Assembly (NCBI GenBank): GCA_902727855.1 | Contig: CACVAS010000030.1 | Span: 62,001 to 126,000, forward strand | Reading direction: 5' to 3' | Source: an uncultured Sulfurovum sp. | GTDB taxonomy: Bacteria; Campylobacterota; Campylobacteria; Campylobacterales; Sulfurovaceae | Length of the DNA: 64,000 nt | Shown here: positions 47,710 through 51,118 of the stretch, one piece after another | Numbering within the stretch: position 1 is the stretch's first letter | Layout of the letters: each line of letters starts with the position of its first letter | The notes under the pieces: generated by a model | Told to the model about the DNA's origin: nothing | Database searches by the model: none | Seen by the model: the letters and a program-made list of their open reading frames with translations, nothing else | Program-made: the position numbers and the translations under genes

Positions 47710-48102
47710 TTATCCCCTGAGGGTGTTTTGGATTTCATAATCCCCAACTAACGCATCAAGAGGAATATGAAGTTTTTGGTGAAGATTTCTTATGTAATTG
47801 AGATTTAGTTTTCGTTTTAGGTTCAATACATCAGAAACTTTTGATTTGTCTCCAAAACAATCGACAATATCTTTTTGTTTTAATCCCATTTGATCCATTC
47901 TGAATTTTATAGCCTCAACAGGGTGAGGAAGCTCCATAGGATAGTGTTCCTCTTCATATTTCTCTATAAGAAGTGTTAGTAACTCAAGTTCATCTCCTTT
48001 GGGAGTATTAGGTTTGGCATCAAAAATAGCTTCTATTCTCTCCATAGCATTCTCATAGTCAGTTTCGGTTTTTAATACTTTTATTTTCACTTTATACCTC
48101 AT
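47710..48102 (-). CDS. higA: HigA-type antitoxin (XRE family)
   Basis: The 130-residue protein has an N-terminal arm that would bind toxin and a C-terminal helix-turn-helix (AIKFRMDQMGLKQKDIVDCF, then GDKSKVSDVLNLKRKL), the usual order for HigA partners of this HigB family. It overlaps the toxin gene by 11 nt and follows it. It probably represses the operon through the palindrome upstream of higB. Confidence 0.85.
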   Translation of the reverse strand: MRYKVKIKVLKTETDYENAMERIEAIFDAKPNTPKGDELELLTLLIEKYEEEHYPMELPHPVEAIKFRMDQMGLKQKDIVDCFGDKSKVSDVLNLKRKLNLNYIRNLHQKLHIPLDALVGDYEIQNTLRG

Positions 48103-48391
48103 TTGCGTCTATTTTGTCATATTGTTTATGCGTTCCAACAAATCTAATGTAGATCACACTAAAGTCATCATTTATCTTCACGATAAGCCTATATTTATTC
48201 CCGTGTATGTTGAAAACAACTCTGCTATCTTTTAAAATACTGGCACTCTTGTACTGTGCTTTTATATCACTAGGGGTCTTCCAGCTTGCCTGTCTAGCTT
48301 CATCAAACCATGCTTTTAAAGCTTGTTCGCTATCTACATATGCTGATTGTTCCCAAAACTCTTTGAGTCTTCTTCTAGAAATTATTCTCAT
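48092..48391 (-). CDS. higB: HigB-type mRNA interferase toxin
   Basis: The 99-residue protein has the HigB/RelE fold: MRIISRRRLKEFWEQSAYVD, SWKTPSDIKAQYKSASILKD, VVFNIHGNKYRLIVKINDD and IYIRFVGTHKQYDKIDANEV. The motif FVGTHKQYDKID is the signature end of the family. It cleaves mRNA at the ribosome. The ATG lies 5 nt after the -10, so its mRNA should be leaderless. The antitoxin follows. Confidence 0.9.
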   Translation of the reverse strand: MRIISRRRLKEFWEQSAYVDSEQALKAWFDEARQASWKTPSDIKAQYKSASILKDSRVVFNIHGNKYRLIVKINDDFSVIYIRFVGTHKQYDKIDANEV

Positions 48392-48567: not shown

Positions 48568-48900
48568 CTACCATACACAAGTCATACAGAAGCTTGGGTC
48601 ACTACCTTGCTGGACGTACAAAGACTTGATGAAGACAGGTGTATAAAAGAAAAAGATGTTGTTATCTAGGTTGGTCTGTGACGAGGGCTGGGAGGGATAC
48701 CCGGTAAGTAAGTGCAGAGTGACTTTAGACTGAAGCAGATAATAAAGCTTGAGATTGGCTTTGTTATCTGTTTGTGTGAGCAGTGTTTGTTCTTTTATGC
48801 CAAAAGCTTTACGTGTGCTCTGGAGAAAAAAGGTTTTATGCGGGAAAGAAAGGATAGATGATGATATATAAGCAAACAATATTAAAAAATACAAATGCAT
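48568..48900 (-). CDS. Possible small secreted protein, unknown
   Basis: The 110-residue reading frame starts with a signal-like stretch (MHLYFLILFAYISSSILSF). The rest (QSTRKAFGIKEQTLLTQTDN, TLHLLTGYPSQPSS, QGSDPSFCMTCVW) is unremarkable. It overlaps the start of the UGA-containing gene by 40 nt on the opposite strand, so at most one start region is native to each. No clear ribosome site is seen. I am not sure this is a real gene. Confidence 0.35.
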   Translation of the reverse strand: MHLYFLILFAYISSSILSFPHKTFFLQSTRKAFGIKEQTLLTQTDNKANLKLYYLLQSKVTLHLLTGYPSQPSSQTNLDNNIFFFYTPVFIKSLYVQQGSDPSFCMTCVW

Positions 48901-49556
48901 TAACTAATACAGTAAAAGCGCTTGCAGCTTTATCAGTTATTTCATGAACTTTTGCTCAAGCAAATGATTTATTAATTCAATGTGACTACAATAATAATTG
49001 AATAGTCGATTGAAGAACTTATTTAAAAAAAGTAAAAAAAGCATTAGAAATAGATTGAGATTATAATAAACAAGATAAAAAAATATACAAAGCAGCACTT
49101 ACAAATGCTAGAAAAGAAAGAAAATGTAAAACAAGAATTGATGGACAAGAAATAAAACGACAAAAAAGTTATTTATCTCAATTAGATACAGATATAGAAT
49201 TATTAAAAAAAGAGTTACAACAAGTAGAGGAAGAACTAAAGCAAAACAAGGAAGAACTAAGTAAGGATAAGGAAGAACTAAGTAAGGATAAGGAAGAACT
49301 AAGTAAGAACAAGGCAGAACTAAAAGAGATTAGAGAAGAATTAGAAAGAAAAAAACAATGGTTATTGGGGAGAATTAGGGAAACGAAACTTTCATTCGGT
49401 TTGGGAGATGCATGTGATAAATTCAGAAAAGATAAAAAAAACTTTAATAGCTGTATGCTAAAGTTTTATAAGCTAAAATATAAAACTGCTACCAAGGATT
49501 TGTATATACGAGCACTTAAAAGTCTCATACAAAAAACTGAGATGGAGTTAAAATAA
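48861..49556 (+). CDS. Secreted EF-hand/coiled-coil protein with four in-frame TGA codons (UGA=Gly recoded)
   Basis: The frame is open for 231 codons only if TGA is read as an amino acid. TGA lies at codons 29, 47, 51 and 66 (48945, 48999, 49011, 49056); no TAA or TAG occurs before the TAA at 49554. AAGGA lies 6 nt before the ATG. Codons 1-34 form a signal peptide (TVKALAALSVIS-x-TFAQA) with TGA as a small residue. Residues 41-54 read CDYNNN-x-IVD-x-RTY: an EF-hand/dockerin-like loop whose sixth position is nearly always Gly. Codon 66 gives EID-x-DYN, again Gly-like. Thus UGA=Gly (code 25) fits better than Trp or Sec. Residues 124-158 are heptads (EELSKDK), then a basic domain with paired Cys. 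Half the glycines are TGA. Confidence 0.7.
49230..49334 (+). repeat. 21-nt tandem repeat encoding coiled-coil heptads
   Basis: Five consecutive 21-nt units start at 49230, 49251, 49272, 49293 and 49314. The second and third are identical and the others differ at a few bases. Each encodes one heptad of the EELSKDK type. Confidence 0.85.
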
Positions 49557-49566
49557 CTTTAGCTCG

Positions 49567-49652
49567 TTCCCATGCTGTGCGTGGGAATGCATACCCCACT
49601 CAAAACTATTTAAAAACATCTAACTTCTTCTCGCACCCATCATCCCGATGGG
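49567..49652. repeat. Two REP-like palindromic hairpins
   Basis: TTCCCATGC / GCGTGGGAA (49567-49587, one mismatch, TGT loop) and CCCATC / GATGGG (49636-49652) lie 48 nt apart. The GTTCCCA...TGGGAATGCA form is like the widespread REP/RAYT-type palindromes. No transposase is present here. Confidence 0.55.
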
Positions 49653-49762: not shown

Positions 49763-50061
49763 ATGTATGAAATTAAATCTACAAAAACATTTTCTAAATG
49801 GTTATCCAAATTAAAAGACATTAAAGGTCGTATTGCAGTAGCCAGACGTATTGAGCGCATGGAGCATGGTAACTTTGGAGATGTAAAATCAGTAGGTGCG
49901 CGTCTTTCTGAGTTGCGTATCAGAACAGGTCCAGGCATAGAGTCTATTTTACACAAAAAGAAACGACCATTATTGTTTTATTGATTGGTGGAGATAAATC
50001 TACCCAATCAAAAGATATAGAAAAAGCTGAAACATTACTAGAGGAGTATGATGATGAATAA
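49763..50061 (+). pseudogene. RelE/HigB-type toxin disrupted by a 1-nt deletion
   Basis: The first frame gives MYEIKSTKTFSKWLSKLKDI to RIRTGPG, the typical start of the addiction-module killer family, then runs into IESILHKKKRP and stops at 49984. One frame over, RVYFTQKETTIIVLLIGGDK and STQSKDIEKAETLLEEYDDE continue the expected protein to a TAA at 50059-50061. The whole length is 299 nt, one short of 100 codons, and the break lies near 49935 in GGTCCAGGCATAGAG. The toxin is therefore inactive, or the deletion is a sequencing error. The antitoxin start overlaps the end. Confidence 0.82.
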
Positions 50062-50344
50062 TGAATTAATCCCTTTTGATATCACGGAGTATCTTGACAG
50101 TGAAGAGGCTATGGCTGAATACCTCTCTCAAGTTCTTGAAGATGGAGATAATGAAGAGTTTATAAGAGCCATTGGACATATTGCCAAAGCCAAAGGCATG
50201 GCACAAATAGCAAAAGATACAGGACTAGGAAGAGAGAGTTTATATAAAGCATTTCGTCCCAATGCCAAACCTAGGTTTGAAACGGTGATGAAGGTTATGC
50301 ATGCATTAAAACTGCAGTTTCATACTACGCTTGGGGCTCGATAA
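50048..50344 (+). CDS. Antitoxin of the RelE-type module (XRE-like)
   Basis: The 98-residue protein carries FDITEYLDSEEAMAEYLSQV, then IRAIGHIAKAKGMAQIAKDT and GLGRESLYKAFRPNAKPRFE. This is the helix-turn-helix antidote typical of the partner of the killer protein just upstream. It begins with three Met codons and overlaps the old toxin end. It looks intact while the toxin is broken. It would bind the 22-bp palindrome. Confidence 0.85.
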   Translation: MMMNNELIPFDITEYLDSEEAMAEYLSQVLEDGDNEEFIRAIGHIAKAKGMAQIAKDTGLGRESLYKAFRPNAKPRFETVMKVMHALKLQFHTTLGAR

Positions 50345-50394: not shown

Positions 50395-50486
50395 GCTGAC
50401 GTGGCATAATGGTTGTGCACTGGGCTTCAACCCCAGATAAGGGCTTCCACCCTTTTACGCGGGTTCGATCCCCGTCGTCCGCTCCA
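50395..50486 (+). tRNA. tRNA with UCA anticodon (Sec/opal type, Gly-like acceptor)
   Basis: The cloverleaf has: acceptor GCTGACG with CGTCCGC (one T-C mismatch), D-arm GCAT/GTGC with loop AATGGTT, anticodon stem CTGGG/CCCAG with loop CTTCAAC (anticodon TCA at 50427-50429), a 22-nt variable arm with stem AAGGG/CCCTT, T-arm GCGGG/CCCGT with TTCGATC, then T73 and encoded CCA. UCA anticodon and long variable arm fit tRNA-Sec. However, canonical bacterial tRNA-Sec has 8-bp acceptor and 6-bp D stems and G73. G1-C72, C2-G71, T73 and the ATAATGG D-loop instead match tRNA-Gly(UCC) from memory. So either divergent selC or a UGA-reading Gly-type tRNA. Confidence 0.75.
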
Positions 50487-50506: not shown

Positions 50507-51118
50507 ATGGCTAAAAAGTTGTATCATCTACCTCTACTAAAAGTGCAAAACTTCATGCACGAGCACAAGAGTACCATTACTACACTACTGGGTAACCCTC
50601 AGAAAAAAGAGTACACCAAACGCTTTGCAAAAGCACAGTACCTCGTGCAGATAGAACAGTTTTTAAAAACCTTCCGCATAGACAAAGAGTTAGCCCATGC
50701 ACTAAAGCTCCTAAGCTACTTTGAGAGTGAAGCTTTTTACAAAGTGCTCTTTGGTCTTTTAAAGTTAGAGCGCTTTGAAGAGAGTAAACCTAGTGAAGTC
50801 TTGATGGTTGTGCTAGCTGTACTGCACAGACATGATGACAAGCTTTATGCACAGTTTTTAGAACACACTTTCATACACTACCACACAGAACAAACAGCCA
50901 AAAGCAAGATACACATAGACTACCAAGGCATAGCCAAACACCTAGCCAAACAACAAAAACTGGACTTCAAAGAGTCTTTTGGAGAAGAGAACGGACAAGC
51001 CTTTTTTAACCTCTATAGTGGTGACGAACTGTTAGTGGGTAAAAATGGAAAGTCTATTAAGACACTTAGAAAACAGGTTTATAAGATGTTTGTAGCGTAT
51101 CTTAGTGGTGAGGGGTAA
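50507..51118 (+). CDS. Hypothetical helical protein beside the tRNA gene
   Basis: The 203-residue protein (MAKKLYHLPLLKVQNFMHEH, then KSTITTLLGNPQKKEYTKRF) is soluble and alpha-helical, with LHRHDDKLYAQFLEHTF in the middle and a basic end. No signal peptide or known domain is seen. Codon use is like the host genes. Its TAA abuts the stop of the convergent periplasmic protein gene. It is not SelA, SelB or a tRNA synthetase. Confidence 0.7.
   Translation: MAKKLYHLPLLKVQNFMHEHKSTITTLLGNPQKKEYTKRFAKAQYLVQIEQFLKTFRIDKELAHALKLLSYFESEAFYKVLFGLLKLERFEESKPSEVLMVVLAVLHRHDDKLYAQFLEHTFIHYHTEQTAKSKIHIDYQGIAKHLAKQQKLDFKESFGEENGQAFFNLYSGDELLVGKNGKSIKTLRKQVYKMFVAYLSGEG

Follow-up and report, generated by a model that had tools for sequence, protein, structure and literature searches.

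A probable gene-local module for reading UGA as glycine in standard-code Campylobacterota

The analysed window is a stretch of 64,000 nucleotides from a contig of an uncultured Sulfurovum sp. (genome G000). It holds, on one strand, a leader RNA, a gene with in-frame TGA codons, a tRNA with the anticodon UCA and the gene of a small protein, p203, together with a hairpin and a toxin-antitoxin-like pair:

48666..48816, + strand: leader RNA, the region matched with 102.6 bits by covariance model R1, for which the window served as one of three source sequences
48675-48680 with 48713-48718, + strand: leader helix P1 (coordinates read off the sequence)
48687-48692 with 48700-48705, + strand: leader helix P2, with the loop AGGGATA at 48693-48699 (coordinates read off the sequence)
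48861..49556, + strand: putative UGA=Gly-coded gene of 231 codons with a TAA stop and TGA at 48945-48947, 48999-49001, 49011-49013 and 49056-49058
49566..49594, + strand: hairpin of a rare REP type, 3' of the gene (whether it belongs to the module is uncertain)
49763..50344, + strand: toxin-antitoxin-like pair between the recoded gene and the tRNA (the antitoxin named from Pfam, the toxin from its position)
50395..50486, + strand: UCA tRNA with a long variable arm, U73, a Gly-type acceptor and a U3xC70 mismatch, called tRNA-SeC by ARAGORN
50507..51118, + strand: p203, 203 aa, with a predicted RNase III-like helical domain and a dsRBD-like C-terminal domain

The toxin-antitoxin-like pair at 49763..50344 is probably a passenger. 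Such pairs lie beside or within the module in G000 (window 47710-48391 and 49763-50344) and in G548 (L111 2161-2750).

An earlier note, made on the window alone, had claimed a UGA=Gly gene inside a standard-code chromosome, and its description of the frame was confirmed: 231 codons, closed by TAA and interrupted only by four in-frame TGA (codons 29, 47, 51 and 66). By eye, the code-25 product begins like a signal peptide and contains a DYNNNGIVDG loop and a coiled coil. Of the codons said to suit glycine, 47, 51 and 66 face Gly in both of the first homologues, P0002 and P0003, while codon 29 falls in the poorly aligned signal region; as a whole, relatives carry Gly or TGA at three of the four places. 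Two homologues added by profile search, P0004 and P0005, have Trp at codons 47 and 66, as we would expect if their TGA codons had been translated with code 4. Concerning the host, the 35 longest non-overlapping ORFs of at least 150 aa in the window end in TAA (22), TAG (8) and TGA (5), so TGA is a stop elsewhere in the window. The claim of a UGA=Gly gene in a standard-code setting is supported. The added statement that the host does not use this code needs a qualification, since the host has a linked tRNA that fits UGA=Gly. As for code 25 itself, UGA standing for Gly in the gene agrees with it (homologue residues, and the Pfam comparison for G285 given below), whereas its genome-wide character, with UGA never a stop, is not found in the window.

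A gene-profile search of 397 Campylobacterota genomes matched four, including G331 (contig JALUBH010000041.1, 3086 bases), where the homologous frame has five TGA. Weak matches without stops in G202 and G222 were set aside as coiled-coil noise, as were three weak matches in G000. Four TGA columns are common to the G000 and G331 genes and one G331 TGA stands opposite Ile; over 160 codons, ps is 0.50 and pn 0.27, so that the window frame has been subject to selection on its protein. FapA, other Pfam rows and the PADLOC rows of P0001 were below cut-off or coiled-coil noise.

The non-coding block 5' of the gene is common to G000 and G331. Its pattern, with up to three mismatches, matched three of the 397 genomes, the third being G285, where a different gene lies behind it. 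Model R1, built from these three leaders and modelled over 138 positions, revealed 11 leader copies, spread over 9 genomes out of 175 in the family, or 13 copies when G331 and G396, both outside that family, are counted. Each of the 13 is followed, with 18-140 nt from leader end to start codon, by a frame that contains in-frame TGA (G208 being a weak case), and no copy lacking such a frame was found among them. In a 12-leader alignment, which was fitted to R1 and hence is not structure-free, both helices were paired in 143 of 143 cells, 18 of them changed on both sides, as against 31-47% for slid versions. A three-leader alignment made without structure gave 36 of 36 paired cells (slid versions 33-47%), for helices chosen by looking at the same sequences. 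Compared with shuffles, the fold of window 48655-48790 had a z of -4.1, while the G331 leader alone (L039 1-140) had a z of 0.56, no better than shuffles. In the window's leader stretch Rfam had nothing at E<=1, and elsewhere in L077 and L039 its matches were all sub-threshold. An attC site, a group II intron and IS200/605 ends were set aside as identities of the leader, by eye only.

G519 (L108 2703-4414) and G473 (L106 9217-12749) each have two units of leader and recoded gene in tandem. The 3' end of the G331 contig (L039 3010-3086) resembles a leader start, so a further copy may follow there.

It has a little less than an even chance that the leader is a mobile-element end or an ordinary regulatory RNA with no part in decoding, the tRNA and gene being merely linked. 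Tandem copies (G473, G519), rare REP hairpins 3' of two genes and patchy spread agree with such an origin, and are to be weighed against the covariation and against a TGA-bearing frame lying directly behind each of the 13 copies, with none without.

Counted to the first TAA, the recoded frames contain the following numbers of TGA per codons: G000 4/231, G285 18/360, G473 12/416 and 20/489, G504 15/306, G519 6/142, G446 6/226 (with a masked run), G553 2/206, G548 8/190, G208 1/100, G331 5/177 and G396 21/1090. The second G519 gene has five TGA ahead of a TAG at codon 289. Since the frames were ended at TAA by choice, the absence of TAA does not count, and the point is their length, which reaches 1090 codons. 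TGA is codon 4 in 7 of 13 recoded genes, for which chance is about 1e-6 at an assumed rate of 5%, a post hoc figure that ignores kinship among the genes.

For one gene, that of G285, all 20 residues were tried at the TGA places, and only Gly passed the Pfam cut-offs, with 31.8 bits for PF16403 and 31.9 bits for PF17963. The next best residue for PF16403 was Cys (21.1 bits), Ser reaching 19.2 bits, and PF17963 was unlisted for the remaining 19 residues. Nine further genes were read with code 25 only, the residue at TGA not being varied, and six of them passed a Pfam cut-off (DUF4214, Big_9, Big_7, PKD_4, PF16403 and others); the genes of G553, G548 and G331 passed none. Between distant recoded genes, TGA often faces other residues (13 of 20 columns for the two G473 genes, 12 of 17 for G396 and G285), and these columns were left out of the support for Gly. 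Decoding of UGA as Ser or Cys by the linked tRNA, to which a long variable arm (SerRS) or U73 and an anticodon near GCA (Cys) could point, is very improbable in the face of these scores, of PF17963 being reached with Gly only and of the Gly residues in homologues, even though PMC7609411 describes a preference of SerRS for long variable arms and the charging of UCA tRNAs by some CysRS.

The UCA tRNA of the window begins 838 nt 3' of the recoded gene, and no second one was seen among the 38 tRNA matches of G000. Elements of tRNA-Gly are G1:C72, C2:G71, G3:C70 and U73, and of the Gly anticodon, UCA retains C35 and loses C36. All 13 UCA tRNAs (one partial) have U at position 73, and all 12 full-length ones have G1:C72 and C2:G71. 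G3:C70 is present in nine of the 12, position 3 being mismatched in G000, G473 and G417; the G417 tRNA is weak (40.4 bits) and is also mismatched at position 6. In G504 and G446 the acceptor is that of the tRNA-Gly of G000. Seven aligned UCA tRNAs form a cloverleaf with 7+5 stems, 17 cells being changed on both sides. Model R2, built from these seven, scores its sources at 103.8-113.3 bits, the CUA and CCG tRNAs discussed below at 59.0 and 58.2 bits, and the best ordinary tRNA among the sources given, tRNA-Gly(TCC), at 50.3 bits (next 45.0). By pairwise alignment, tRNA-Gly(TCC) comes first for the UCA tRNAs of G000, G504 and G548 and third for that of G396, which in plain pairwise alignment is nearer tRNA-Leu and tRNA-Thr.

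Could the tRNA be an ordinary tRNA-Sec, with UGA meaning selenocysteine or being unrelated? The anticodon, the long variable arm and the ARAGORN call (tRNA-SeC (tca), given for 7 among the 10 loci scanned first) suggest so, and still the idea is hardly credible: all 13 have U73, while G73 is essential for tRNA-Sec (PMC5330540), the tRNA occurs in only 10 of 175 genomes and is tied to the leader, and Cys, the nearest residue to Sec, scored 21.1 bits against 31.8 for Gly. The 13-bp acceptor/T domain (8+5) of tRNA-Sec was not seen in the seven aligned tRNAs, an argument of little weight because some true tRNA-Sec are also 7+5 (PMC5330540). Nor did these seven show the 12-bp acceptor domain (8/4 or 9/3) that PMC7609411 gives for allo-tRNAs and selC* tRNA.

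Among the 175 genomes, the leader was found in 9, the UCA tRNA (R2, E<=1e-10) in 10 and both in 7 (Fisher p=4.7e-9, uncorrected for kinship). In the genomes with the tRNA only (G496, G545 and G529), the contig ends 0-160 nt 5' of it. No UCA tRNA was found on the contigs of the leader genomes G285, G519 and G331; the contig ends 987 nt past the gene in G285 and about 1.8 kb past the second gene in G519. Gene and tRNA have the same direction in G000, G473 (first gene), G553 and G548, and are divergent in G504, G446 and G396. The last belongs to another family of the order and is a single contig of 3,269,699 bases. It has the whole set within 6.7 kb: a U32-like pair, a CUA tRNA, the recoded gene (21 TGA and 2 TAG before its TAA end), a leader (60.6 bits), a UCA tRNA (109.7 bits) and p203.

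Seen against these loci, the earlier note's view of a lone foreign gene is incomplete, as it missed the leader 5', the tRNA and the small protein gene beyond it. Leader and TGA-bearing frame are present together in 11 Campylobacterota genomes. With one of these a single 3.27-Mb contig, the assembly join it had named as an alternative is not supported; an artefact uniting two organisms is extremely unlikely, despite most of the genomes being fragmented and G000 having a contamination value of 9.07.

The G396 locus lies amid defence-type genes (L135 147-2278, 12501-13703 and 17208-19977), namely a PDC-M62 pair, a Fic-like gene, a CBASS cyclase, an E2 and a SAVED-HNH effector. In G473, a PtuA/PtuB-like pair (L106 4323-6261) lies about 3 kb upstream of the first leader.

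p203 lies 3' of the UCA tRNA in 9 of the 10 loci found by leader or tRNA, to which two loci found via p203 are added; in G548 it is shortened, and G545 lacks it. It is present in 4 of 397 Campylobacterota genomes. A fragment occurs in G266 with neither tRNA nor leader nearby. The predicted order of an RNase III-like helical domain and a dsRBD-like domain recalls RNase III and the mitoribosomal protein mL44. The RNase III signature is not evident in p203, and no RNase III sequence match was obtained for p203 in Pfam, NCBIfam and the PDB profile search, nor with the p203 profile; PDB sequence-search rows were at chance level. For these reasons p203 is probably a binder and not a nuclease.

As regards origin, genome_contigs was scanned twice for the gene family: P0001 alone found no match, and the second scan, with two patterns (one without Gly and able to match a close CPR relative), had a Campylobacteraceae MAG as its sole match. 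That a single gene came from Absconditabacteria or Gracilibacteria, as proposed earlier, is not shown. Named matches of the gene family and of p203 are from Campylobacterota only. No relatives of gene or leader were found in viral contigs or in phage and plasmid records, the only rows being four Spiroplasma plasmids over about 42 bases (E 9e-3).

That these genes are relics of code-25 genes, dead in Campylobacterota, is improbable. UGA=Gly is the code of that clade, and so is CGG=Trp (PMC8629427), with which the CGG at a Trp place in G331 may be compared. The recoded genes are also low in GC (0.23-0.35), and the G208 locus looks decayed, with one TGA in 100 codons and a p203 with two TAA. Relics would nevertheless hardly be linked to, and co-occur with, a fitting tRNA, nor show compensatory changes in leader and tRNA helices or frames of up to 1090 codons without TAA, and no CPR relative appeared in the genome_contigs scans. 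Acquisition of the whole working module from code-25 bacteria would be a variant of origin compatible with local decoding. It shares the meaning UGA=Gly and perhaps CGG=Trp, and the patchy spread (leader in 9 of 175 genomes, p203 in 4 of 397) and the sources of P0004 and P0005, seemingly translated with code 4, agree with it; given the exclusively campylobacterotal named matches and a window p203 with zero in-frame TGA, we find it rather unlikely.

The reading that we consider probable is that of a module which decodes UGA as Gly locally, for certain genes of bacteria with the standard code. Seen in sequence are TGA at places of Gly, the identity signals of the tRNA, the linkage and co-occurrence of the parts and the covariation of the leader. 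The linked tRNA-Gly(UCA), whose variable arm is long, would read UGA as Gly in a single neighbouring gene or a few of them, most being of secreted or surface type, while the cell elsewhere uses UGA to end its genes; both the charging of the tRNA with Gly and its reading of these codons are inferred steps. Because other host genes end in UGA, a confining role is proposed for leader and p203, which might restrict or help UGA reading on marked messages somewhat in the manner of SECIS and SelB, an idea that we hold possible but less likely than not. An early UGA, as at codon 4 in 7 of 13 genes, may keep the genes silent without the tRNA and so act as a lock on secreted or surface proteins.

Known cases of stop codons with a second meaning extend over a whole genome, belong to phages, or concern the rare amino acids Sec and Pyl. 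With the selenocysteine system, the proposed module shares a UCA tRNA with a long variable arm, a message-linked RNA structure, a partner protein and a sense reading of UGA in chosen genes only; it differs by the inferred Gly, U73, the 7+5 stems, up to 21 UGA per gene, an RNA element 5' of the gene and a partner predicted to be RNase III-like with a dsRBD. Code 25 of Absconditabacteria and Gracilibacteria likewise has UGA=Gly with a tRNA-Gly(UCA), but as a genome-wide change, whereas here a linked cassette would act locally, other genes end in UGA and the variable arm is long. Allo-tRNAs and selC* tRNA-Cys are similarly tRNA-Sec-like, with unusual anticodons, some linked partner genes and a patchy presence in bacteria, but have 8/4 or 9/3 domains and Ser or Cys identity (PMC7609411), as opposed to 7+5 stems, Gly signals and a recoded gene close by. 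Recoded phages with suppressor tRNAs also have in-frame stops read in a standard-code cell, while the module's gene and leader had no match in viral contigs or phage records.

In the literature searched (subscription papers and preprints being outside its scope), no gene-specific or mobile suppressor-tRNA system of this kind was found. In the present case a stop codon seems to stand for a canonical amino acid in no more than a few neighbouring genes, with tRNA, RNA element and partner protein together. If true, one could test directly how one codon keeps two meanings within the same cell, a class of genes now called 'tRNA-Sec' or 'pseudogenes' would be misannotated, and a natural part set for gene-specific recoding would be at hand.

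A second class of tRNAs (anticodon CUA or CCG, long variable arm, G73), followed by a conserved U32-like protein pair, was observed at L135 3263-5443, L107 5453-7730 and L039 964-2952. Their G73 is as in the tRNA-Trp of G000. At G504, the other locus with a CUA tRNA, the frame has one in-frame TAG and then more TGA before TAA. In G331, a CCG tRNA precedes the pair, whose proteins are 73 and 81% identical to those of G504; the recoded gene there has zero TGG and one CGG, which stands opposite a TGG of P0001, and CGG is absent from 11 other recoded genes. Among relatives of G331, U32-like proteins occur in 9 other genomes of 31, those listed having 23-29% identity. Three TAG and one CGG, too small a number to tell, hint at a second recoded codon class (UAG/CGG), perhaps Trp, perhaps Ser. 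The wider picture, which we hold possible though short of an even chance, would be a modular second code: a 5' RNA signal would mark the messages, UGA would be read as Gly by the UCA tRNA with p203, and CUA or CCG tRNAs with the U32-like pair would at some loci read UAG or CGG, perhaps as Trp. The whole would keep surface-protein genes locked in any cell that lacks the tRNA.

The rare REP-type hairpin lies 3' of two recoded genes, its sites being window 49566-49594, L079 11654-11685, L092 891-921 and 1520-1550, and L093. Exact matches number two in G000, three in G285 and zero in G331, and the remaining copies adjoin RAYT-like genes, named by eye.
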